64,000 nucleotides of DNA from Mucilaginibacter gotjawali. Lineage in GTDB: Bacteria > Bacteroidota > Bacteroidia > Sphingobacteriales > Sphingobacteriaceae. Location of the stretch: positions 868,001-932,000 of the forward strand of contig NZ_AP017313.1 in assembly GCF_002355435.1 (NCBI RefSeq). Reading direction: 5' to 3'. The position numbers were made by a program, and so were the translations under genes. Shown in pieces: positions 27,535-39,583 of this stretch. The number at the start of each line of letters is the position of its first letter. The first letter of the stretch is position 1. A model generated the notes under the pieces. That model saw only the letters and a program-made list of their open reading frames with translations. It made no database searches and had not been told where the DNA came from.

Positions 27535-28272
27535 TTATATTGACGAAAGCAGTTCGAGGAATGCACTTTTGCGCCTGCGGCTCACTTCTATTTCAACATC
27601 ATTGCGCATAATCACGCTGCCGCCTTCGCCCTTTATGTATTTTTTGATATGGTTCATATTGATAAGGTATGAATGATGCACCCTGAAAAAGAAATGGGGT
27701 GATAAAAGATCATCGAAATCCTTAAGGTTTTTGGTGGAAGTAATAACGGTATTATTTAAATAAACCTCGGTATAGGCATTGTCGGCCTTGCAGTAGACAA
27801 TGTCATTGATGTTCACAAATTCGATAGCAGTAGCTGATGCTATGGCTATTTTATCAAACCTGTTTTTAGATTGTTGTAACTGTTGCAGTAAGTGTGGTAC
27901 TTGCTGAACAGAATGTACAGGCAGGCTATTTAAACGCTGTATGGCTTTACCAAGGTCATCCAGGTCTATGGGTTTTAATAAAAAATCAATGGCGGATAGC
28001 TTAATTGCATTGAGCGCGTAATGATTATGGGCCGAAACAAAAATGATCTTAAAATCAATGTTACCAAGTTCCTTTAACATATCGAAGCCGTTTTTGCCGG
28101 GCATTTCAACATCTAAAAACACTACGTCAGGCTTCCATGCATCAATACGCCTGATGCCTTCGTCGGCATCGGCGGCCGTTGCCACTACTTTTATTTGCGG
28201 AAAATGCTGCGTTAATAATTGCAGCAGGATGTTTCTGCCCTTTGGCTCGTCATCAACAATAATGGCTTTCAT
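27535..28272 (-). CDS. LytTR-family response regulator
   Basis: This 245-residue regulator has a receiver domain (residues 1-120; Asp7-Asp8, phospho-acceptor Asp54 in VVFLDVEMPG, Lys102) and a C-terminal LytTR DNA-binding domain (about 145-240; IEFVNINDIVYCKADNAYTE, FFFRVHHSYLINMNHIKKYI, VSRRRKSAFLELL). LytTR proteins bind paired direct repeats upstream of targets. It is encoded 5 bases after the cognate sensor kinase. Likely targets are the OmpA-like gene, the downstream secreted genes and possibly the divergent cluster at 31530. Confidence 0.95.
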   Translation of the reverse strand: MKAIIVDDEPKGRNILLQLLTQHFPQIKVVATAADADEGIRRIDAWKPDVVFLDVEMPGKNGFDMLKELGNIDFKIIFVSAHNHYALNAIKLSAIDFLLKPIDLDDLGKAIQRLNSLPVHSVQQVPHLLQQLQQSKNRFDKIAIASATAIEFVNINDIVYCKADNAYTEVYLNNTVITSTKNLKDFDDLLSPHFFFRVHHSYLINMNHIKKYIKGEGGSVIMRNDVEIEVSRRRKSAFLELLSSI

Positions 28273-28277
28273 CAGTA

Positions 28278-31200
28278 TTAAAATTCTAATGGAATAATTA
28301 TAATTACCTCAGTTCCGCAGGCGTCTCCATTCGCGTCTTTTAAATCATTAATGGTAATGCTTGCTTCTTTTTCCAATAACTGCAGCCTTTCCTCTGTAAT
28401 TTTTACCCCCATGGAATGTTTTTTTATTTGTGTGTTTGTATTGACTTCGGCCGCCAGGTTTCGGCCAACCCCATTGTCTGTTATGATGCATTCCAAATTA
28501 CCATTTTTCTGATCGAAACATAAGGTAAGTTTTTTTTCGCCTTTTTTACGGATCAGGCCGTGCCAAAGGGCATTTTCAACAAATGGCTGGATGATCATTG
28601 CCGGAATATTAACAAATGAAGTGTCCAGTTTAGGGCCGATATCTATCCTGTATTCAAACGAGCTGTCGAAACGTAATTTTTCGATCGAAAGATATAACCT
28701 GAGGGTCTCGATCTCATCAGCCAGTGTTATAAATTGTTTTTCTGAATTTTCAAGTATCATCCTCACCAGTTTTGAAAAATTTGAAAGATAGGCGTACGCC
28801 GTATCGGTATTTTTGGTGATGATGCACTCCTGGATGGAATTAAGCGCGTTAAAGATAAAATGCGGGTTCATTTGTGCGCGGAGGGCTTTCATTTCCAGTG
28901 CGGAAAGCTGTAATTGCAAGGCTGATTTTTTTTGCTCCCGCAGCCGCACACTACGGATGATTAATAATAGCGACAGGACTAACAGGAAGATCAGTAAACA
29001 GATAAACCAAACCGTTTGGTAAAACTTTGGCGCTATGGTAAAGGCTACTGATTTTTCATCGCCGGCCAGGCCATCTGCTGTAACAGCTTTATACCTGAAA
29101 ATATAATGGCCCGGCGGCAGGTGATTATATTCAATATGGCCTTTATTGCCGGTGTAGTTCCACTCTTTGTCAATTTTTTCAAGTTTATTGTAATACCTGT
29201 TTTGCAGGGGGTTGGTATAATTAAGCAATGCCCATTTAAAGGTGACTTTTTCGATGCCTGCCGGTACTATTATATTTTTCAGGCTGCTCACATTTAAACT
29301 TGTATCATCAGCAATTATTCCGGTAAGCAATAACTTCTTTTTAGCAGGGGTTCTTAGCAGTTCAGTAGGCTTAAAGCTGGTAATATAGTTTTCGCCGGCA
29401 TAAACCATTAACCCGCCTGATGCTTTTTTTATCGTGCCGTCCATATCATTATTGATCAGGCCGTCTTCTTCGGTGTATTGGTTGAAACTATGATTGGCCG
29501 TATTAAATACTACTAAGCCGGTACGGCTGGCTATCCAGATATTGCCATTCCGGTCATCCGTATAATAATATACATGTTTATTCATCCCGGCCGGCAGGGG
29601 CCAGCTGTTGGTTTTGCCGGTTAGCGCATTAATGGCTACCACGGCGTCGTTGTCAATCAACCAAAGGTTGTTTTTTATATAGATGATATTAACTGCGCGG
29701 GAGTAAGGCGTGATATCTTTGTTTACAATGCGTTGGAATTTTTTAGTTGATGCATCATATTTTACGACGCCATAATCCAGATCGGTCAGCCATATATTTC
29801 CCCTGCTATCGCTTACAGCATCCTCCACATTTACCCCCTTTGGCTTTCCGTAAGCATCGGGCAATGTTTCAATCAAAGGTTTGAATTTATTAGCGGTGCT
29901 ATCAAAACGCCAAATCCCCCGGCGCCATGGAAAACACCACAAACCATACCTGGTGCTGAGCACATTGTTAATAAACCCGGATATTTTTTTAGTGCTATCT
30001 CCAACTGTTTTGCATAGTGCCGTTATTCTATCAGTTTTGGTATCCAGTTTTAAGATGCCCGAGGTTGTTGCAAGCAGCAGAATGTTTTGCCGGTATGGTG
30101 TAATATTCATTATAGCAATACCCGGTTCGTTAAAACCGGTAGTATTTTGTATGGCCCGGGTGTAATTTTTTAGCAGGTGAAACTTATCGTCGAATACTTC
30201 CAGTTGTAATTTAGTATCTCCGCCCATCCAAAGGCGCCCGTTTTGCTCCAAAAGTGCCGGGTTTTGGTTGGTAATACTATTTTGCCCCGCAATAAAATAA
30301 TGTTTAAAGATCTGCCGTTTAGGATCAAGTATAAAAACGCCCTTTACCGTTGAGATCCATAATAGGTTATCCCGCGACACATAAACGCATCGCGGTTCTA
30401 GGGAGGCCGCTTCAGGAATCGGTTTCAGATCATGCTGCTCAGTTTTTAAATCTTTTTGGTTAAACTCGGTCAGGTATTCGCTTAGCCATAAATGGTATTG
30501 TTTGTTTTCATCACGCTGTTCAACAATACTCATAATATGTGCAGGTATTCCAGCCAAACCACTAAAGTTGATGACGGTGCGGTTTTCAGGAATTACCTGT
30601 TTTAAACCGCCGCTCCAGCAGCCTGTCCATATTTTACCATCATGGTCTTCAAATATGGTATTCACCATCCCATCATATTGAGGGTCGTTTTTAGGGCCAT
30701 CGTATTGCCCGTAGGTGAGTTTTGTGGTGTCAAACAGCCAGAGGCCATTCACGGTGGCCAGCCAAAGCCTTTTTTTCGAATCTAAAAGTAATGCATTGCA
30801 TTCATTGTTCAAGCGGCTGGTGTTAGTGGATTTGCCTGCGGTTTCATTTAAAAAATGCCTGAATGTTTTTTGCCGGGTATCAAACAGGAGCAATCCGTCG
30901 CCGGTGGCTATCCATAGTTTAACACCGTCAACAGCAAGGCTACGCATCCTGTTGTCCCCATCATATTGCCACGAATGTATTTTTTCAGTACCCGGGTCTA
31001 TAACGGAAAGGCCGTTTGAGGTAGCCATCCATATCCTGTGCATCGCATCCTCGGTAATAGCATTTACCTGGCCGCTTAAAAGCTGGTCGTTTGAGGGCTG
31101 GTCGCCCGGGCGCCAGGTTTTTAGTTCGGAGCCATCAAACCGGTTAAGGCCATTTTGTGTCCCCATCCACATGATCCCCTGGCTATCCTGAAAAAAACAG

Positions 31201-31334
31201 TTGACCATATTATCAGCCAGGCCATCTTTTTCGCTGACGTGGTAGTAAAGCTGTTTTGCCTTGTTAACCTGCGCCCAAAGCCTGCCGCAAAAGAGTGGCA
31301 GTATAATTAACAGGATATAGTATTTTAAGCGCAA
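28278..31334 (-). CDS. Periplasmic-sensing histidine kinase (reg_prop beta-propellers + Y_Y_Y + LytS-type HisKA)
   Basis: This 1018-residue kinase has a signal peptide (YYILLIILPLFCGRLWAQ), two reg_prop seven-bladed propellers across about residues 25-690 (repeat pattern like DSQGIMWMGTQNGLNRFDG, DAMHRIWMATSNGLSVIDPG), a Y_Y_Y Ig-like domain (about 700-765), one membrane helix (about 772-793; IAPKFYQTVWFICLLIFLLV) and a cytosolic His_kinase domain with the LytS-type box LKAQMNPHFIFNALNSIQEC, here ALRAQMNPHFIFNALNSI, plus HATPase motifs (DNGVGRN, GVKITEERL). This is the standard partner of LytTR regulators in Bacteroidota and senses an envelope or glycan signal. Confidence 0.94.
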   Translation of the reverse strand: MRLKYYILLIILPLFCGRLWAQVNKAKQLYYHVSEKDGLADNMVNCFFQDSQGIMWMGTQNGLNRFDGSELKTWRPGDQPSNDQLLSGQVNAITEDAMHRIWMATSNGLSVIDPGTEKIHSWQYDGDNRMRSLAVDGVKLWIATGDGLLLFDTRQKTFRHFLNETAGKSTNTSRLNNECNALLLDSKKRLWLATVNGLWLFDTTKLTYGQYDGPKNDPQYDGMVNTIFEDHDGKIWTGCWSGGLKQVIPENRTVINFSGLAGIPAHIMSIVEQRDENKQYHLWLSEYLTEFNQKDLKTEQHDLKPIPEAASLEPRCVYVSRDNLLWISTVKGVFILDPKRQIFKHYFIAGQNSITNQNPALLEQNGRLWMGGDTKLQLEVFDDKFHLLKNYTRAIQNTTGFNEPGIAIMNITPYRQNILLLATTSGILKLDTKTDRITALCKTVGDSTKKISGFINNVLSTRYGLWCFPWRRGIWRFDSTANKFKPLIETLPDAYGKPKGVNVEDAVSDSRGNIWLTDLDYGVVKYDASTKKFQRIVNKDITPYSRAVNIIYIKNNLWLIDNDAVVAINALTGKTNSWPLPAGMNKHVYYYTDDRNGNIWIASRTGLVVFNTANHSFNQYTEEDGLINNDMDGTIKKASGGLMVYAGENYITSFKPTELLRTPAKKKLLLTGIIADDTSLNVSSLKNIIVPAGIEKVTFKWALLNYTNPLQNRYYNKLEKIDKEWNYTGNKGHIEYNHLPPGHYIFRYKAVTADGLAGDEKSVAFTIAPKFYQTVWFICLLIFLLVLSLLLIIRSVRLREQKKSALQLQLSALEMKALRAQMNPHFIFNALNSIQECIITKNTDTAYAYLSNFSKLVRMILENSEKQFITLADEIETLRLYLSIEKLRFDSSFEYRIDIGPKLDTSFVNIPAMIIQPFVENALWHGLIRKKGEKKLTLCFDQKNGNLECIITDNGVGRNLAAEVNTNTQIKKHSMGVKITEERLQLLEKEASITINDLKDANGDACGTEVIIIIPLEF

Positions 31335-31471: not shown

Positions 31472-31503
31472 TTTGAAAGTTGTTTTATAATGCACTATAT
31501 TTA
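31472..31503 (+). promoter_or_regulatory. Putative promoter of the 31530 gene and the AhpD-like cluster
   Basis: TTTG (31472-31475), a 20-base spacer and TATATTTA (31496-31503) match the Bacteroidota -33/-7 pattern with one mismatch, and the -7 box ends 26 bases before the TTG start. It lies in the 195-base region divergent from the sensor kinase. Confidence 0.55.
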
Positions 31504-31529
31504 GTGGATCAATCTTGTACACAAAGACA

Positions 31530-32078
31530 TTGAAAAAATTAATCGCTGCTTTCCTGCTTTTTATCTACCTGTTCAACGTAGGTGGTCAGCTGGCTTTGCA
31601 CCATTATTTTTCAATTTTATCCGACCGGTTCTTTACCGAACAAACAGCAAAAGGGCTTTACAATGTGAGTGACCTCACCGAAGTTAAACTGCCCGTAAAC
31701 ATGCCCGGTATAACTGATTGGAAGGGATATGAAAATATAAGCGGACAGATAAAGTTTGAAAACAATAGCTATAACTATGTAAAAATGAAGATAACCAGGA
31801 CTGCTCTATACCTGATGTGCATCCCTGATTATCAAACTACCCGCCTGGCCAATCAGAATGTTATTGATGCCAAACAGGCAAAAAGCGTTCCGGTACCCAA
31901 AAAGGAACATGTGCCGTATACCAAAACAACACTGTCAGATAAATTTAGCTTTGCCTTTACGCAATTTGCTTTTGTTGCTTTTTCAAAAACAAGGCAAACA
32001 CTACGTGTTCAGCATGTACAAAGGGTAATATTCCATCATTTATCCATTCCGGATCAGCCGCCACGGCTATCCTGTTAA
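31530..32078 (+). CDS. Exported protein of unknown function, paralogue of the gene at 36041
   Basis: This 182-residue protein starts at TTG 31530, chosen because its paralogue starts with GTG at exactly the homologous codon. The N-terminus is a signal peptide or anchor (KKLIAAFLLFIYLFNVGGQL). A conserved core shared with the gene at 36041 includes YNVSDLTEVKLPVNMPGITD, YNYVKMKITRTALYLMCIPD, TTRL and VPVPKKEHVPY. No known family is recognised. It opens the AhpD-like gene cluster and its paralogue closes it, which suggests a common envelope role. The tail after about residue 145 is unrelated to the paralogue's. Confidence 0.75.
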   Translation: MKKLIAAFLLFIYLFNVGGQLALHHYFSILSDRFFTEQTAKGLYNVSDLTEVKLPVNMPGITDWKGYENISGQIKFENNSYNYVKMKITRTALYLMCIPDYQTTRLANQNVIDAKQAKSVPVPKKEHVPYTKTTLSDKFSFAFTQFAFVAFSKTRQTLRVQHVQRVIFHHLSIPDQPPRLSC

Positions 32079-32259
32079 TTTTTCTCTATTCTAATTCATC
32101 CCGAAGGGCGTATCAAAATTGCTGCTTTTAAAAGCTTTAATTTGTTGGTTTTCTGTCGACTGGTCATTTGGCCTTAATTCCGGCAAATCAACACAACCAG
32201 CCAATTGAGCAACTGATGTTTATCACTTTCGGTTACTATCAAATTTTCACATATTCATT

Positions 32260-32823
32260 ATGCCTTATATACCATTGGAATCCCATCTGCCGGGGATAAC
32301 CGGTTTGCTGGAATATCGCCGCGACACGGCGCAACCTATCAGGGAACTTACCGAGATCTTACTTCGCGGGCCATCAAGCCTTACGCGTGGCGAACGGGAA
32401 TTGATCGCCACCGTAGTATCCAACGGTAACCAATGCAAATTTTGTTCGGCGGCCCATGCCGCTACGGTGGACATGCTTTTAGGAGAGCACGAAACATCAA
32501 AGCAAGTGAAAGCTGATATTTTAACAGCGCCGGTGAGCGAAAAAATGAAAGCACTTTTAACTATTGCCGATAAAGTGAGAGAAGACGGTAAACTGGTAAC
32601 AACCGCGCATATTGAGAAAGCAAAAGCCGAAGGCGCAACAGACATTGAAATACATGATACGGTATTGATAGCCGGTTTGTTTTGCCTGTACAACCGTTAT
32701 GTTGACGGTATGGCAACTGCTATGCCAGAAGATAACGGCTATTTCACTGTGTTGGCCGACAGGCTGGTTAATCATGGTTACTACCGTTTGCCGCAGGGCT
32801 ATGATCATTTAAAAAAACATTAA
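32260..32823 (+). CDS. Carboxymuconolactone decarboxylase/AhpD-like family protein (1 of 4)
   Basis: This 187-residue protein belongs to the peroxidase-related AhpD-fold family. The active-site signature is intact: RGERELIATVVSNGNQCKFC followed by SAAHAA, giving Glu47, Cys59, Cys62 and His66. In AhpD the CxxC reduces peroxides or accepts electrons; in carboxymuconolactone decarboxylases related folds are non-redox. The CxxC-xxx-H layout favours redox chemistry. Conserved downstream segments are MKALLTIADKVREDGK, TDIEIHDTVLIAG and YNRYVDGMA. It ends 4 bases before the MFS transporter, so the two are an operon. Confidence 0.92.
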   Translation: MPYIPLESHLPGITGLLEYRRDTAQPIRELTEILLRGPSSLTRGERELIATVVSNGNQCKFCSAAHAATVDMLLGEHETSKQVKADILTAPVSEKMKALLTIADKVREDGKLVTTAHIEKAKAEGATDIEIHDTVLIAGLFCLYNRYVDGMATAMPEDNGYFTVLADRLVNHGYYRLPQGYDHLKKH

Positions 32824-32827
32824 AACA

Positions 32828-34084
32828 ATGCAGACAGAACTAATAGCTACTCCTGTGGCGCAACAATCGGTAAAATCAGTTCGGTTGATTTTATTATTTA
32901 TCGTTTGCTTCGCCGGCAACATGTTTGCCGGGTCGGTTTCCACCCTAATGGCGGTTTACCTGCACGTAGTGGTAAGGGAATTCCAGGGCAACCAAAGCAG
33001 TGCCCAACTGAATAGTATCAGCGCCTATATCAATTCACTGTTCATTTTTGGCTGGGCGACCGGCGGATTTTTATGGGGATTGATCAGCGACAAAACAGGC
33101 AGAAAAGCCGCCTTGTTGTTATCAATAGGCAGTTACGGCATATTTACGATGCTGACCGCCTTTTCACAAAGTTGGGGCGAAGTGATGATATGCCGGTTTT
33201 TTAGCGGTTTTGGCGCCGGAGGCCTGCTCGTCATATCTTTTACATTAATAAGCGAGGTTTGGCCTGAAAAAAGCAAGGCGGTTTTTACCGGTATATTATC
33301 AATTGCAATACCTATAGGTATTTTTTCGACGGGCTTACTCAATTATATTGTTGCGTCGTGGCGGCAAGGCTTCCTGGTAGGAGTTTTGCCGGTATTGTTT
33401 GCTATAGCAGGTTACTGGATGATAGATGAATCGGGACTATGGTTAAAGGATAAATCGGAAGAGCAGATGGATAAAAAGCACGCTCCTCATTTGTTCGGAG
33501 CTTCCAACCTCAGGATATTGATAGTGGGTTCCGTCATATTCGGGACGATGCTCATTGGCTTATGGGCTATATTTTCGTGGCTTCCAACCTGGATACAGAG
33601 CCTTATGAGCACAGATGCCCATAAGGAAGGTGATTTAAGCATTATGTTTTTGGGTATGGGCGGGCTTATCGGGGGCTTCCTTTCGGGTTGGGTAGTAAAA
33701 CTGGTGGGTTTGAGAACGTCGTTGATTGCCAGTTTTGTGGTATGCTTCGCTTTGTCCTTTATTTTGTTTAAGACTAACAGCTCTTTCTCACCGGTAATTT
33801 ACGCTGAGATAGCCGTTTTAGCATTGTTTTTCGGGGCTAGCCAGGGCATTTTGTCGCTTTATATTCCGGCGCTGTTTCCGGCAGTAATAAGGGCGTCTGC
33901 AACAGGTTTTTGTTTTAACACAGGCCGCCTGCTTACTGCTTTAGCCGTTTTATTTGCGGGGGTATTGGTAGATGTTTTAGGCGGCTACGGCAATTCCCTG
34001 TTTATTTTTTCATTTGTTTTTTTAATGGGCCTGCTGGTTGTTGTATTTGTTAAAAACATACAGCCGGTTCAACCTGCAGAATAA
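32828..34084 (+). CDS. MFS transporter (aromatic acid/sugar-acid-like)
   Basis: This 418-residue transporter has 12 predicted helices. MFS hallmarks include WGLISDKTGRKAALLLSIGS after helix 2 (the GxxxDxxGRR loop), the helix 4 motif ICRFFSGFGAGGLLVISFTL and a mid-loop WLKDKSEEQMDKKHAPH. Overall it resembles the AAHS/NiaP-like group that moves small aromatic or carboxylic acids. It is encoded between AhpD-like genes 1 and 2 with almost no gaps, so it probably imports or exports the substrate of that cluster. The substrate is unknown. Confidence 0.9.
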   Translation: MQTELIATPVAQQSVKSVRLILLFIVCFAGNMFAGSVSTLMAVYLHVVVREFQGNQSSAQLNSISAYINSLFIFGWATGGFLWGLISDKTGRKAALLLSIGSYGIFTMLTAFSQSWGEVMICRFFSGFGAGGLLVISFTLISEVWPEKSKAVFTGILSIAIPIGIFSTGLLNYIVASWRQGFLVGVLPVLFAIAGYWMIDESGLWLKDKSEEQMDKKHAPHLFGASNLRILIVGSVIFGTMLIGLWAIFSWLPTWIQSLMSTDAHKEGDLSIMFLGMGGLIGGFLSGWVVKLVGLRTSLIASFVVCFALSFILFKTNSSFSPVIYAEIAVLALFFGASQGILSLYIPALFPAVIRASATGFCFNTGRLLTALAVLFAGVLVDVLGGYGNSLFIFSFVFLMGLLVVVFVKNIQPVQPAE

Positions 34085-34097
34085 ACTAAAACTAACA

Positions 34098-34649
34098 ATG
34101 ATGGCGCATATCGAACTAAATAATGACTTACCCGACATACGGGGCCTGATGGCCTACAGCCCCCAAATAGCTGAAGTTTTAAACGCTTTAGCGGAAACGC
34201 TGTTGCGGAACGACGATAATACCTTAAGCCGCGGCGAACGTGAATTGATAGGTACCTATGTGTCCTATCTGAACGATTGTTTCTTTTGTCAAAACGTACA
34301 TGGTGCAATGGCGGGGCATTACCTTAACTGCGACATCCAGCAGATTGATGGCATTAAGCATGATTTTAACTCAGCAGACCTGTCCGGCAAAATGAAAGCA
34401 TTGCTCAGCATTGCAGGCAGTGTTCAAAAGGGCGGAAAATATGTAACGGAAGCGCAGATTGAAGAAGCAAAAATGAATGGCGCAACAGATAAGGAGATCC
34501 ATGATACGGTTTTGATAGCCGCCTCGTTTTGTATGTTTAACAGGTACGTTGACGGTTTGGGTACATGGGCGCCGCAAGACAGGGAGTTTTATGTAAACAG
34601 GGCGCCTCAACGTGCTTTGGAGGGTTACCAGTCGAGTGTATATAAATGA
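34098..34649 (+). CDS. Carboxymuconolactone decarboxylase/AhpD-like family protein (2 of 4)
   Basis: This 183-residue paralogue of the 32260 gene starts at one of two adjacent ATGs (34098 or 34101); the second gives MAHIELNNDL, matching the other copies. Upstream in-frame codons overlap the MFS gene and are not conserved. The AhpD site reads SRGERELIGTYVSYLNDCFF with CQNVHGA, so both cysteines and the histidine are kept. It also has MKALLSIAGSVQKGGKYVTE and YVDGLGTWAP. It starts 14 bases after the MFS stop in the same operon. Divergence from copy 1 is substantial, so the copies probably have different partners or substrates. Confidence 0.91.
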   Translation: MMAHIELNNDLPDIRGLMAYSPQIAEVLNALAETLLRNDDNTLSRGERELIGTYVSYLNDCFFCQNVHGAMAGHYLNCDIQQIDGIKHDFNSADLSGKMKALLSIAGSVQKGGKYVTEAQIEEAKMNGATDKEIHDTVLIAASFCMFNRYVDGLGTWAPQDREFYVNRAPQRALEGYQSSVYK

Positions 34650-34650
34650 T

Positions 34651-34740
34651 GGTTGATTGAGTTTATCAGGTTGATTAAGTGAATAGTTAATTCAACCCGG
34701 TAAACTAATCAACCCAATAAACTTAATCTAACTCAATAAC
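34651..34740. repeat. Inverted intergenic repeat related to that at 23110-23208
   Basis: The left part carries GGTTGATTGAGTTTATCAGG and TTGATTAAGT; the right part carries TAAACTAATCAACCCAATAA and ACTTAATCTAACTCAATAAC. The arms are partly complementary. It separates AhpD-like genes 2 and 3 and may reduce read-through within the cluster. Confidence 0.65.
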
Positions 34741-34748
34741 TAACAAAT

Positions 34749-35312
34749 ATGCCACATATTAACTTACCACAGGAATTTCCGGGCATCAGGAGCCTGTTTA
34801 TGTTCAGGCCGGAAACTGCTGCCCCATTGAATGCGTTGGTGCAGGCGATGCTGCATAACCCGCACCCAACATTAAGCGCAGGCGAGCGGGAGCTGATAGC
34901 CACCTATGTATCGCGTTTAAATACCTGCAAATATTGCTGCAACATACATGGCGCCATCGCGCAGCACCAGTTGGGTAATAATGCCGGAATTGTACAACAA
35001 GTATTGGCAGACCCGGAAACAGCGCCCATCAGCAATAAAATGAAAGCATTGTTAAAAATTGCCGCCAAAGTACAGTCCGGCGGGAAAAACGTGCTTCCGC
35101 AGGATATTGAACTGGCCCGGAGCGAGGGGGCTACCGATATAGAGATCCATGACGCAGTTTTAATAGCCGCAGCCTTTTGCATGTATAACCGCTATGTTGA
35201 CGGCCTTGCAACCTGGCAGCCCGATGACCCGGCACTGTATGATAAAATGGGAGAACAGCGCGCCCGCGAGGGCTATTTAACGCTTCCGTTTAAGGTGGTA
35301 ATTAATCATTAG
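34749..35312 (+). CDS. Carboxymuconolactone decarboxylase/AhpD-like family protein (3 of 4)
   Basis: At 187 residues this has the same fold and start pattern as its neighbours (MPHINLPQEFPGIRSLFMFR). The active site reads SAGERELIATYVSRLNTCKY with CCNIHGA, so the CxxC has an extra adjacent cysteine (CKYCC), unlike the other copies. MKALLKIAAKVQSGGKNVLP and TDIEIHDAVLIAAAFC are conserved. The preceding gap is a repeat, so it may be transcribed separately or as a weaker distal gene. The biochemical role is unknown. Tandem duplication of this family is the notable feature of the locus. Confidence 0.91.
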   Translation: MPHINLPQEFPGIRSLFMFRPETAAPLNALVQAMLHNPHPTLSAGERELIATYVSRLNTCKYCCNIHGAIAQHQLGNNAGIVQQVLADPETAPISNKMKALLKIAAKVQSGGKNVLPQDIELARSEGATDIEIHDAVLIAAAFCMYNRYVDGLATWQPDDPALYDKMGEQRAREGYLTLPFKVVINH

Positions 35313-35407
35313 TCATTAGTCATTGCTTAACTGAATTTTAACATTGCAACTTTACAACGTATCAACATTACAACAAATAATCAAACCAATAAACTAAATC
35401 AACCAAT

Positions 35408-35947
35408 ATGGCACATATCAAATTATTGAACGAAGAATTACCAGGCATAGTAGGCCTGTTAAACTACCGGCCCGAAACCGCGCGGCCATTGCTTGACCTT
35501 GCGGAGACCTTATTAAGAGGAGAATCGAGTTTGACCAGTGGCGAAAGGGAAATTATAGCAGCCTCAGTTTCATACTGGAATGGCTGCCATTTTTGCCATA
35601 CCTCGCATGCCGCAGCTGCTGCCGCGCACTTAAAAAGCGGTATAGGCCTGATAGACGATATTAAAGCCGGCTTGCCCACTACTCCGGTTTCCGATAAACT
35701 GAGGGCTTTGCTGCACATTGCACACCAGGTGCAGCGCAATGGTAAAAATGTTACTGAGGATGATATTGCAGCAGCCCGCGCTTTGGGTGCAACAGATATT
35801 GAATTGCATGATACCGTTTTAATAGCTGCTGCCTTTTGCATGTATAACCGCTATGTTGACGGACTGGGCACCTGGGCGCCCGGGCCTAACGAAGCCTATG
35901 CCGAAATGGGTGAAAGAATGGCACATGTTGGTTACGGCAAATATTAG
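35408..35947 (+). CDS. Carboxymuconolactone decarboxylase/AhpD-like family protein (4 of 4)
   Basis: This 179-residue protein starts MAHIKLLNEELPGIVGLLNY. The active site reads SGEREIIAASVSYWNGCHFC and HTSHAA, so Cys-x-x-Cys and His are kept. LRALLHIAHQVQRNGKNVTE and TDIELHDTVLIAAAFC follow, then YVDGLGTWAPG as in copy 2. It is the last of the four copies, 95 bases after the third, in an AT-rich gap with short repeats. The retained residues argue that all four are functional rather than decaying duplicates. Confidence 0.91.
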   Translation: MAHIKLLNEELPGIVGLLNYRPETARPLLDLAETLLRGESSLTSGEREIIAASVSYWNGCHFCHTSHAAAAAAHLKSGIGLIDDIKAGLPTTPVSDKLRALLHIAHQVQRNGKNVTEDDIAAARALGATDIELHDTVLIAAAFCMYNRYVDGLGTWAPGPNEAYAEMGERMAHVGYGKY

Positions 35948-36040
35948 TAAAACAAATTATAAATATTAAGGGGCGGACCGTTTCACCGTGTTCGCCCTGT
36001 TTCGAAATATAACGTTGTGCTTTAAGCCAACAATTATAAA

Positions 36041-36595
36041 GTGAAAAAATTAATTGCCATAGCACTGCTTTTAATCCACTTCTATAATATAGGGGGGCAA
36101 TTACTATTTCATGAATATTTGGTGTACCAGTCTGACAAGTTATTTAATGAACAGATCAGTCAAAATCGCTACAATATTGATGACCTCACCGAAATCAGGA
36201 TCCCGGCAAATATGCCCGGCATCAGCGACTGGAAAACCTATCAGAATTTAAACGGCCGCATCCAGTTTGGCAATACAGCCTATAATTATATAAAAATTAG
36301 AATGACAAGGACGGCCATTTACCTGGTTTGTATCCCCAACTACGCAACTACCCGTTTATGTGATAAAAACGTTATCAATGCTACACAAATTCCCGACATA
36401 CCGGTGCCAAAAAAAGGTCATGTGCCTTTTGGTAAAATAAATTTGGCAACTTATAGTCATCAATGTGTACATTACAAGTTTTCAATCCCCATTTTCATGA
36501 TCCAGGCGGGTATTTTCTATAAGCAAGCCGATATACTCTATTTAACTATGATCGGCCCTGGTAGGCCTCCTGACGTAAAGACAATATTTTCCTGA
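36041..36595 (+). CDS. Exported protein of unknown function, paralogue of the gene at 31530
   Basis: This 184-residue protein starts with GTG and KKLIAIALLLIHFYNIGGQL, an N-terminal signal or anchor. The core matches the 31530 product closely: YNIDDLTEIRIPANMPGISD, YNYIKIRMTRTAIYLVCIPN, TTRL and VPVPKKGHVPF. The C-termini differ. Both lack recognisable domains. Their placement on either side of the AhpD-like genes suggests duplication together with the cluster or a role in the same pathway. A repeated NMPGI(S/T)DW motif may be a functional site. Confidence 0.75.
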   Translation: MKKLIAIALLLIHFYNIGGQLLFHEYLVYQSDKLFNEQISQNRYNIDDLTEIRIPANMPGISDWKTYQNLNGRIQFGNTAYNYIKIRMTRTAIYLVCIPNYATTRLCDKNVINATQIPDIPVPKKGHVPFGKINLATYSHQCVHYKFSIPIFMIQAGIFYKQADILYLTMIGPGRPPDVKTIFS

Positions 36596-36835: not shown

Positions 36836-39100
36836 ATGTTTAAAAATAGAAAAATTCAGATAGGTCTTTTTTTACTGTCGGGCTTTGCAGTCTTGTTGTT
36901 GGGGTTTTCGGTTATCAATTATTACCACGAATCTTCCCATCAACAAATGGTCGACTTGCTAAAAGCACTTACAAAAAAAAATCTGAGTGTCCAAAATCCC
37001 TTCAATCCCGAAGTGAAAAAGGCACGTATTGATTCCCTGCTTCAAATACCGGGTAATAATAACAATAGCTACCTGCTGGCTTTAAAAGCATCGCTCGCGC
37101 TAAAAACCGGGCAGGAGGAAGAATCGGTAAAAACATATGAAGAGGTTGTTAAAAATATTGATGTCATGTCTGTTGACCATATGATGCCCGATATTGCCAT
37201 AGCGTATATGCGATTAGGGGAAAGAAACAATTGCATGCTTAACCATAACGGATCTTCATGCATCTTCCCGATAAAAGACGGCGGCATCCATGTACAAAAG
37301 ACCGGATCAACCAGGGCGATTGAGGTATATGAAGAGATCTTAAAAAATCACCCGGATGACTATGAATCAAAATGGTTGCTTAATATCGCCTTTATGACGC
37401 TGGGCGGATACCCTAAAAAAGTACCCCGGGCGTTTTTGCTTCCCGGGTTAGACGCGGATACTGCTTATAACGTAAAACCTTTTACAGATATAGCTGCCGA
37501 CCTTGGCCTGAATGTAAATGGAAGAGCAGGGGGTGTTATTGTTGATGATTTTAATAATGACGGCTACCTGGACATTGTAACATCAGGCTGGGACCTTACC
37601 GACCCTTTGCATTATTTCCAGAACAATAAAGATGGTACTTTTAGCGACCTTACTGAACACAGCGGTTTAAAAGGGATAACCGGCGGCTTAAATATCCAGC
37701 AGACGGATTATAACAATGATGGCAACCTTGATATTTTTGTTTTACGGGGCGCATGGAATACACAGGGTTTTGGCAATCAGCCCAGTTCGTTACTGCGAAA
37801 CAATGGCGACGGCACGTTTACTGACGTTACCATCCCAAGTGGCCTGCTTTTTTATAAACCCACCCAGGCCGCTGTTTGGGCAGATTTTAACAATGACGGC
37901 TGGCTGGACGTATTTGTTGGCGCAGAAGATTCAGGAACGATAGACGCCGGTGGTATACATACCTGCTCGCTGTATATTAATAACCAGGACGGGACATTTA
38001 CTGATGTTGCTGAGCAGGCACATTGCAATTTTACAGCATTTGTTAAAGGTGCAACCTCTGCTGATTTTAATAATGACGGCTGGCCGGATTTATTTTTATC
38101 AACCATGAACGGAAAAAAATATCTTTTGAAAAATAAAGGAAAGCCCGGAATAATACCTGACTTTGAAGATGTGAGCGACCAGTCGGAAATTGCAAATAAC
38201 ACCATGAGTACTTTTACCACCTGGTTTTACGATTATAATAATGATGGCTGGCCGGATGTTTTAGTAAGCGGTTATGGGTTTAACAAGAGTTTGGCCTACT
38301 ATGCCGGAGCGGCTGCAGCAGGGAAGCCTGTGCCCCAGGCGGGCAATGTGTTTTTATATAAAAATAACCAAGATGGTACTTTTACCGACGTTACCAAAAA
38401 CGTTGGGCTCGACAAAGTAGTTTACAGCATGGGCGGCAATTTTGGCGATATTGACAATGACGGCTGGCCGGATATGTATTTTGGTACTGGTAATCCCGAT
38501 TTTAAATCGTTGGTACCCAATAAAATGTTTAAAAATTTGGGTGGAGAGAAATTTGCGGACGTTACCACATCTTCACGGACGGGAAACCTTCAAAAAGGAC
38601 ATGGTGTGGCTTTTGCCGATATCAGGAACAGCGGGATCCAGGATATTTTTATAGAAATGGGTGGGGCCTATAAAGGGGATTCGTACACCAGTTCGCTATA
38701 CATGAACCCGGGGCAGAGTAACAATAACTGGATAAGTTTAAAACTGCAGGGGGTGAAGGCAAACAGGGCTGCGATAGGAAGTCGTATAAAGGTTACTTTC
38801 ACCGAGAACGGTCATAAACGGAGTGTTTACAAAGATGTTAACTCAGGCGGAAGTTTCGGATCTTCGCCATTGCGGCAGGAGATCGGGATAGGACAGGCCG
38901 GCTTGATTGACGAGATTGAAATCAGGTGGGCCGGATGTAACGCAGTTCAGCATTTTAAAAATATCGCCCCAAACCAGTTTTTGCACATCACGGAAGGAAT
39001 TGGCAAACCTGAAGTGATTAACCTGGCCAAAATGGCTTACAAAAGAAAACTGAACGGCCCTTTGTGTATGCCGGTGGCTTCAGCATTAACTGTAAAATAA
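36836..39100 (+). CDS. CRTAC1-family protein (FG-GAP/VCBS repeats + ASPIC/UnbV domain)
   Basis: This 754-residue protein has an N-terminal membrane anchor (about residues 9-26; LFLLSGFAVLLLGFSVI), a helical TPR-like stretch (about 35-200) and then seven or more FG-GAP/VCBS repeats with calcium-binding DxNxDG motifs (FNNDGYLDIV, YNNDGNLDIF, FNNDGWLDVF, FNNDGWPDLF, YNNDGWPDVL, IDNDGWPDMY). The C-terminal ASPIC/UnbV domain spans about 630-730 (NNWISLKLQGVKANRAAIGS, IRWAGCNAVQHFKNI). It is a surface or periplasmic adhesin-like protein of unknown role. It follows the AhpD-like cluster on the same strand after a 240-base gap in which I see no gene. Confidence 0.9.
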   Translation: MFKNRKIQIGLFLLSGFAVLLLGFSVINYYHESSHQQMVDLLKALTKKNLSVQNPFNPEVKKARIDSLLQIPGNNNNSYLLALKASLALKTGQEEESVKTYEEVVKNIDVMSVDHMMPDIAIAYMRLGERNNCMLNHNGSSCIFPIKDGGIHVQKTGSTRAIEVYEEILKNHPDDYESKWLLNIAFMTLGGYPKKVPRAFLLPGLDADTAYNVKPFTDIAADLGLNVNGRAGGVIVDDFNNDGYLDIVTSGWDLTDPLHYFQNNKDGTFSDLTEHSGLKGITGGLNIQQTDYNNDGNLDIFVLRGAWNTQGFGNQPSSLLRNNGDGTFTDVTIPSGLLFYKPTQAAVWADFNNDGWLDVFVGAEDSGTIDAGGIHTCSLYINNQDGTFTDVAEQAHCNFTAFVKGATSADFNNDGWPDLFLSTMNGKKYLLKNKGKPGIIPDFEDVSDQSEIANNTMSTFTTWFYDYNNDGWPDVLVSGYGFNKSLAYYAGAAAAGKPVPQAGNVFLYKNNQDGTFTDVTKNVGLDKVVYSMGGNFGDIDNDGWPDMYFGTGNPDFKSLVPNKMFKNLGGEKFADVTTSSRTGNLQKGHGVAFADIRNSGIQDIFIEMGGAYKGDSYTSSLYMNPGQSNNNWISLKLQGVKANRAAIGSRIKVTFTENGHKRSVYKDVNSGGSFGSSPLRQEIGIGQAGLIDEIEIRWAGCNAVQHFKNIAPNQFLHITEGIGKPEVINLAKMAYKRKLNGPLCMPVASALTVK

Positions 39101-39208: not shown

Positions 39209-39583
39209 ATGAAAAAACTATTTTTAATTTGCTGCCTGTTTGTTGGATTAACCACAGCAGGTTTTTCTCAACCCAGGAGCGGGCCACCGTCTGACCCGGT
39301 TCAGAAAGCCAAAGGATTGCAAAAGGAATTAAAATTGACAGATGATCAAACGTCAAAAATTGCAGGCATCTATAAAGAGTCGGCCCAGCAATTTGATAAA
39401 ATAAAAGCAGCTGACAACGGTAATACCAATAAAATGCTGGTTGACGTAGGCCCGTTGCGTAAGGCAACCATCAAAAAAATAAAATCTGTTTTAACAGCAA
39501 GCCAGTCGGCAAAATACGATGCTTTGTTGAAGGAAAATAAAAACGCCTCATTAAATGGCGGTTGGAGTGATGGCTGGGGTTGA
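39209..39583 (+). CDS. Spy/CpxP-like small periplasmic protein
   Basis: This 124-residue protein has a signal peptide ending TTAGFSQ. The mature part is helical and rich in charged residues, with two LTxxQ-like motifs, LKLTDDQTSKI (about residues 41-51) and VLTASQSAKYDAL (about 93-105), the hallmark of Spy/CpxP chaperone-like or heavy-metal-response proteins (compare DUF4890). The tail is Gly/Trp-rich (NGGWSDGWG). It probably binds unfolded or stress-damaged periplasmic proteins. It is a single gene with its own promoter and a terminator. Confidence 0.82.
   Translation: MKKLFLICCLFVGLTTAGFSQPRSGPPSDPVQKAKGLQKELKLTDDQTSKIAGIYKESAQQFDKIKAADNGNTNKMLVDVGPLRKATIKKIKSVLTASQSAKYDALLKENKNASLNGGWSDGWG

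Follow-up and report, generated by a model that had tools for sequence, protein, structure and literature searches.

A recurrent Bacteroidota gene cluster of AhpD-like paralogues and an MFS transporter, and its header gene with an inferred non-ATG start

Why would four AhpD-like genes be kept together with an MFS transporter gene, and with genes for related exported proteins on both sides? We examined this question at positions 31,530-36,595 of the window, that is, of the whole 64,000-nucleotide stretch of DNA analysed (bases 868001-932000), which belongs to a single-contig genome of 6.34 Mb. The closest named relatives of the genes at this locus are from Mucilaginibacter.

Layout and recurrence of the cluster

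All seven ORFs of the region were confirmed, each on the + strand. The first, S1 (31530..32078), has its conserved start, a TTG, at 31530, and its ORF can be extended to another TTG at 31515. It is followed by AhpD-like copy 1 (32260..32823), an MFS transporter gene (32828..34084; MFS_1 in Pfam), AhpD-like copies 2 (34098..34649), 3 (34749..35312) and 4 (35408..35947), and S2 (36041..36595), which has a GTG start. The ORF list and Pfam thus bear out the preliminary description, in which four AhpD-like genes were reported with an MFS gene between copies 1 and 2; its two flanking exported proteins are indeed related, S1 and S2 being 44% identical. Beyond S2, on the same strand, lie a gene for an FG-GAP repeat and UnbV/ASPIC protein (36836..39100), assigned to a second operon, and one for a small exported protein with a weak LTXXQ/Spy-like match (39209..39583), which is found 3' of the FG-GAP gene in several relatives as well.

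For comparison, we took the best 80 of 565 confirmed loci from species genomes, representing at least 26 named genera; 78 were usable, two having no AhpD ORF under the ORF selection used. Because these loci were chosen solely by similarity to the window AhpD proteins, their neighbour genes were not selected for; because they are best matches and not a random sample, presence rates among them are not rates for the phylum. When all neighbouring ORFs were clustered blind to function, MFS genes recurred at 71 of these 78 best-match loci, TonB-dependent receptor genes at 64 and S at 63, followed by DUF3179 (35), PAP2/haloperoxidase-like (14), FG-GAP/ASPIC (12) and MetE-like genes (11). The usual order in the best 80 of 565 is S–AhpD–receptor–MFS–AhpD–AhpD–DUF3179, with AhpD–AhpD (68), MFS–AhpD (62), AhpD–receptor (56), S–AhpD (48) and receptor–MFS (44) as the commonest successions. 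The earlier suggestion that the AhpD copies and the MFS protein form one transport-linked module is strengthened by this recurrence of the same set across Bacteroidota loci. A full-text literature search, outside whose coverage most subscription journals lay, turned up no paper that describes the cluster or S, and this recurring Bacteroidota operon has apparently gone undescribed so far.

Copy number varies: the best 80 of 565 loci have 1 to 6 AhpD copies each, with four in 11/80 and three in 41/80. Since the MFS gene divides the window's AhpD set into 1 + 3, its longest uninterrupted run is three. The remark that four in a row is rare holds for unbroken runs, which occur at 2/78 of the best-match loci; it does not describe the window, and four copies in one cluster are not unique. 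Of 151 genomes sampled evenly from the family, 13 carry the AhpD type, as do 21/296 in a sample of the phylum; the cluster is an accessory, patchy module. Outside the best-match counts, a Kapaibacterium MAG (L118, 8229-11708) has an MFS gene and then four unbroken AhpD genes, without S, and runs of three or four AhpD genes are also seen in phylum genomes G248, G252, G260 and G422.

S1 and S2 had been taken to bracket the AhpD set. We reject this reading because S precedes operons and the nearest relative of S2 likewise precedes an FG-GAP gene. S lies directly 5' of the first AhpD gene at 47/78 of the best 80 of 565 loci; S2 groups with an S protein from a different AhpD–S–FG-GAP locus (SH-aLRT 99), and S–FG-GAP pairs stand apart from AhpD at loci L140 and L148. 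Judged from sequence, S is best read as the header, or first gene, of operons, and the window as two consecutive S-headed operons, with S1 leading the AhpD operon and S2 grouped with the downstream FG-GAP/ASPIC gene and not with the AhpD set. In the family sample, S was found at 55 places in 33/151 genomes, 12 of the 55 (a hand count) having an AhpD gene no more than 10 kb away; of the remaining places, most of those examined have S at the head of an outer-membrane operon. In the phylum sample, S is present in 46/296 genomes and absent from 14 of the 21 genomes with AhpD, and AhpD runs lacking S occur in several more distant genomes. In the family sample, S is mostly found away from AhpD, an outcome that the preliminary description, together with unrelated AhpD clades, had counted against a single module. 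Among 30 short S loci, an S ORF was seen in 28, nearly all of which head OM310–PAP2, PAP2, receptor, FG-GAP or AhpD–receptor genes.

Active site and ancestry of the AhpD-like copies

Pfam and NCBIfam identify the four window copies as AhpD-like. Each lies above the PF02627 (CMD) cut-off, and against TIGR01926, "peroxidase-related enzyme," copies 1 to 4 score 84.9, 83.2, 89.5 and 84.7 bits (cut-off 81.8). They share with the AhpD/carboxymuconolactone decarboxylase superfamily (TIGR01926) a sequence-based fold family and the E–C–x–x–C–x–x–x–H site; what distinguishes the window cluster is that it keeps several ancient paralogues in one operon with a transporter. Identity to copy 1 is 46% for copy 2, 48% for copy 3 and 51% for copy 4; E47, C59, C62 and H66 are invariant across all four, as the earlier observation of a retained CxxC-xxx-H and upstream Glu had it. 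Among 255 AhpD proteins from related loci, E47 and H66 are kept in 255/255, C62 in 254/255 and C59 in 238/255, the other 17 having Thr or Ser at position 59. Every clade retains the active site, which rules out inactive paralogues. According to excerpts of PMC13188914, the motif in TIGR01926 relatives with Sec is CxxU, an observation in keeping with C62 as the reactive residue and probable nucleophile. DUF3179 has UxxC/T relatives (excerpts of PMC13188914 and PMC9312934). The present operon resembles the selenoprotein redox operons with AhpD-like genes, in that AhpD-like and DUF3179 proteins have CxxU/UxxC relatives and redox genes are clustered; it differs from them, as far as the excerpts of PMC13188914 describe them, in having Cys forms only, with no TGA inside genes, and transport genes as core members.

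One reading of these sites is peroxide defence, in which the AhpD copies would reduce organic hydroperoxides and the transporter would export or import peroxidised compounds. The retained CxxC–H and the closest models, which are peroxidase-related (TIGR01926; PDB 2prr, 2pfx, 3c1l, 2oyo), would fit it, as would the PAP2/haloperoxidase-like proteins, of a family that uses peroxide, at 14/78 of the best 80 of 565 loci. Classical AhpD, however, works with AhpC, usually encoded next to it, and no AhpC gene adjoins the cluster. Nothing in the genome passes the AhpC cut-off of TIGR03137 (best 142 vs 272 bits), which rules out a classical AhpC/AhpD pair, and the AhpC family is absent from the recurrent neighbours of related loci. 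The window copies also depart from classical AhpD at position 61, where all four have Phe or Tyr instead of the His between the two cysteines, which we take to be His132 of M. tuberculosis AhpD. A receptor and an MFS protein would be unusual partners for general peroxide defence, for which the cluster is also too patchy (13/151 family genomes), and we consider this reading unlikely.

Aromatic or lactone catabolism would make the copies carboxymuconolactone-decarboxylase-like enzymes and the MFS protein an aromatic-acid importer. The copies do belong to PF02627, and the best NCBIfam model for the MFS protein is aromatic acid/H+ symport (TIGR00895), but at 132.3 bits this match stays far under the cut-off of 418.55. 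No window protein matches the 4-carboxymuconolactone decarboxylase equivalog model (NCBIfam, up to E 0.1), the NCBIfam matches include no decarboxylase model, and ring-cleavage genes are missing from the recurrent neighbours of related loci. The retained CxxC would indicate redox chemistry instead. Catabolism of this kind seems to us improbable.

How did one cluster come to hold four such genes? Our tree comprised 104 AhpD proteins from 32 chosen loci, of 259 AhpD in all, with SH-aLRT supports from a quick search and no bootstrap; AhpD proteins outside 150-260 aa and S proteins below 150 aa were left out of trees and alignments, and AhpD proteins beyond the tree took the clade name of their nearest BLAST match. 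Copy 1 falls in an alpha clade (31 rows, SH-aLRT 99), whose members are the first AhpD in most clusters, copy 2 in a gamma clade (37 rows, a weaker 80), copy 3 in a delta clade (6 rows, 100) and copy 4 in an epsilon clade (7 rows, 99). The window has no member of a beta clade (20 rows, 97), whose genes usually come first after MFS. Because the closest relatives of the window copies are copies in other genomes, and not their neighbours, tandem duplication within this genome is rejected, and on the tree the four copies are ancient paralogues rather than products of recent local duplication. For the preliminary description, copies from unrelated clades gained separately would have spoken against one module: they do lie in four different clades, but these are not unrelated, all of them residing in such clusters in other genera across Bacteroidota, and separate gain is a misfit.

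The set might still be a loose collection of paralogues without joint function, kept by co-transfer and a shared promoter only. Such a collection would be expected to show what the best 80 of 565 loci do show, a copy number of 1 to 6 and a variable gene order, and the alpha clade does not strictly follow families. Against this, the alpha, beta and gamma clades track operon position across many genera and families, and beta and delta are mutually exclusive, with beta in 0/9 delta clusters and 46/86 others; we regard a loose collection as rather improbable.

A proposed import route

In the window cluster there is no TonB-dependent receptor, and no full-length profile match occurs anywhere in the genome. 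Relocation of the receptor within the genome is ruled out, since the 20 profile matches found all fall within its first third (plug region). The nearest complete relative in the same genus, L128, reads S–alpha–receptor–MFS–gamma–delta–epsilon–DUF3179. Elsewhere, the window genome has a fifth AhpD gene, of the alpha clade, at 1139595-1141360 (L133, 9535-11360), a span that includes the genome's only DUF3179 gene, at 1140509, directly after that AhpD; in three genomes of the same genus, too, this AhpD-DUF3179 pair occurs on its own.

In joining an outer-membrane receptor, inner-membrane transport and enzymes in a modular way, the related operons recall PULs (SusC/SusD loci) and TonB-dependent receptor operons, and some related loci carry SusC/SusD and an esterase. 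They differ from PULs in that no glycoside hydrolases are found among the recurrent neighbours of related loci, the receptor family falls below the SusC cut-off, and an S gene stands at the head.

Based on these findings, we propose that a small organic compound would enter through the TonB-dependent receptor where one is present, while the window strain, without a receptor, may use another outer-membrane route. The MFS protein would then move the compound inward, and several AhpD-like enzymes would transform it in the cytoplasm, with Cys62 as the nucleophile and Cys59 as its partner; the paralogues may handle different intermediates, or may assemble together. In this proposal, whose chances we place just short of even, the first of the window's two header-led operons is a version of a Bacteroidota-wide import operon, its organic compound being transformed by the CxxC AhpD paralogues. 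This conserved operon, in which several thiol-redox paralogues are combined with an MFS transporter and with uptake across the outer membrane, is a ready target for genetics in soil Bacteroidota.

The S family and its start codon

Neither S1 nor S2 has a Pfam or NCBIfam match, and among 43 S members scanned against the two collections no family was matched by more than one. S, which is present in 46/296 sampled genomes of the phylum, marks a gap among named families. A C-terminal Pro-Pro is invariant across 61 aligned members, and dN/dS values of 0.03-0.11 in 9/9 pairs indicate purifying selection. In the predicted structure, a model of moderate quality (mean pLDDT 75.5, pTM 0.51), the N-terminus forms a long helix, four strands make up a further region, and the tail is disordered; a fold search with it gave nothing significant (best E 0.13), and no fold relative was accepted.

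Start codons were read by alignment on the family N-terminus in 102 distinct S genes, after removal of 11 duplicates. Of these, 67 start with TTG, 23 with GTG, 4 with CTG, 3 with ATG and 5 with other codons; as four of the last five have an ATG one codon earlier, about 7/102 may be counted as ATG and 94/102 as TTG, GTG or CTG. Read by one method at the same loci, ATG starts were found in 244/246 AhpD, 69/76 receptor and 62/73 placed MFS genes, compared with 3/81 S genes. No in-frame ATG exists upstream inside the ORF in 92/102 S genes. Leucine usage does not account for the bias, because TTG makes up only 17% (307/1827) of the internal Leu codons of S. We infer from the alignment that S almost never begins with ATG. 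The S tree requires 9 changes between TTG and GTG and 3 between ATG and non-ATG. Among 25 more distant S genes (10 TTG, 6 GTG, 6 ATG, 3 other or unread), ATG is commoner; the trait, though strong, is therefore not shared by all.

The region upstream of S was scored against the Bacteroidota promoter consensus, TTTG / TAnnTTTG. A match (spacing 20, score 9/10) at 31472..31503 on the + strand ends 26 bases 5' of S1, and none is present upstream of S2. Scores of at least 9 were obtained upstream of 29/87 S genes (shuffled mean 7.6, maximum 12), compared with 10/235 AhpD, 2/58 MFS and 1/74 receptor genes. Divergently and just upstream of S1 lie genes for a Reg_prop/Y_Y_Y histidine kinase and a LytTR-type response regulator (window 27535-31334, - strand). 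This pair could regulate the AhpD operon; the pairing is not generally conserved at related loci.

S may be a periplasmic protein anchored in the inner membrane, whose weak start codon would keep its dose low, and it would serve the outer-membrane part of each operon that it heads, as a sensor or coupling factor. Taking these ideas together, S would be a new, dose-limited header family marking outer-membrane uptake and redox operons throughout Bacteroidota, in which selection keeps the weak non-ATG start (its first base switching repeatedly among T, G and C, seldom to A) as a translational throttle; where the operon carries AhpD genes, alpha, gamma and either beta or delta, three paralogues of ancient origin, would together form one mixed-subunit enzyme. 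We offer this joint reading as a possibility about which we are ourselves rather doubtful. Bacteroidota lack Shine-Dalgarno signals, as stated in excerpts of PMC6847099, and in that setting the near-fixed TTG/GTG start of S is an unusually clear natural example with which to study the retention of a weak start codon.

A weak AATTATTCTAAA element was noticed upstream of S in L054, L058, L135, L138 and L141, which include AhpD-type and PAP2-type operons; with five related-genome upstreams, whose redundancy was partly removed, the independent cases are too few, and we do not claim a shared operator. The window genome has a third S gene, with a TTG start, from 2751017 on (L138, 9017-15613), in an operon of S–OM310–PAP2/haloperoxidase-like–OM373–MetE-like–DoxX-like genes. 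In the same genus, L135 has an AhpD–SusC–SusD–DUF3179–esterase block inside an operon that matches L138.
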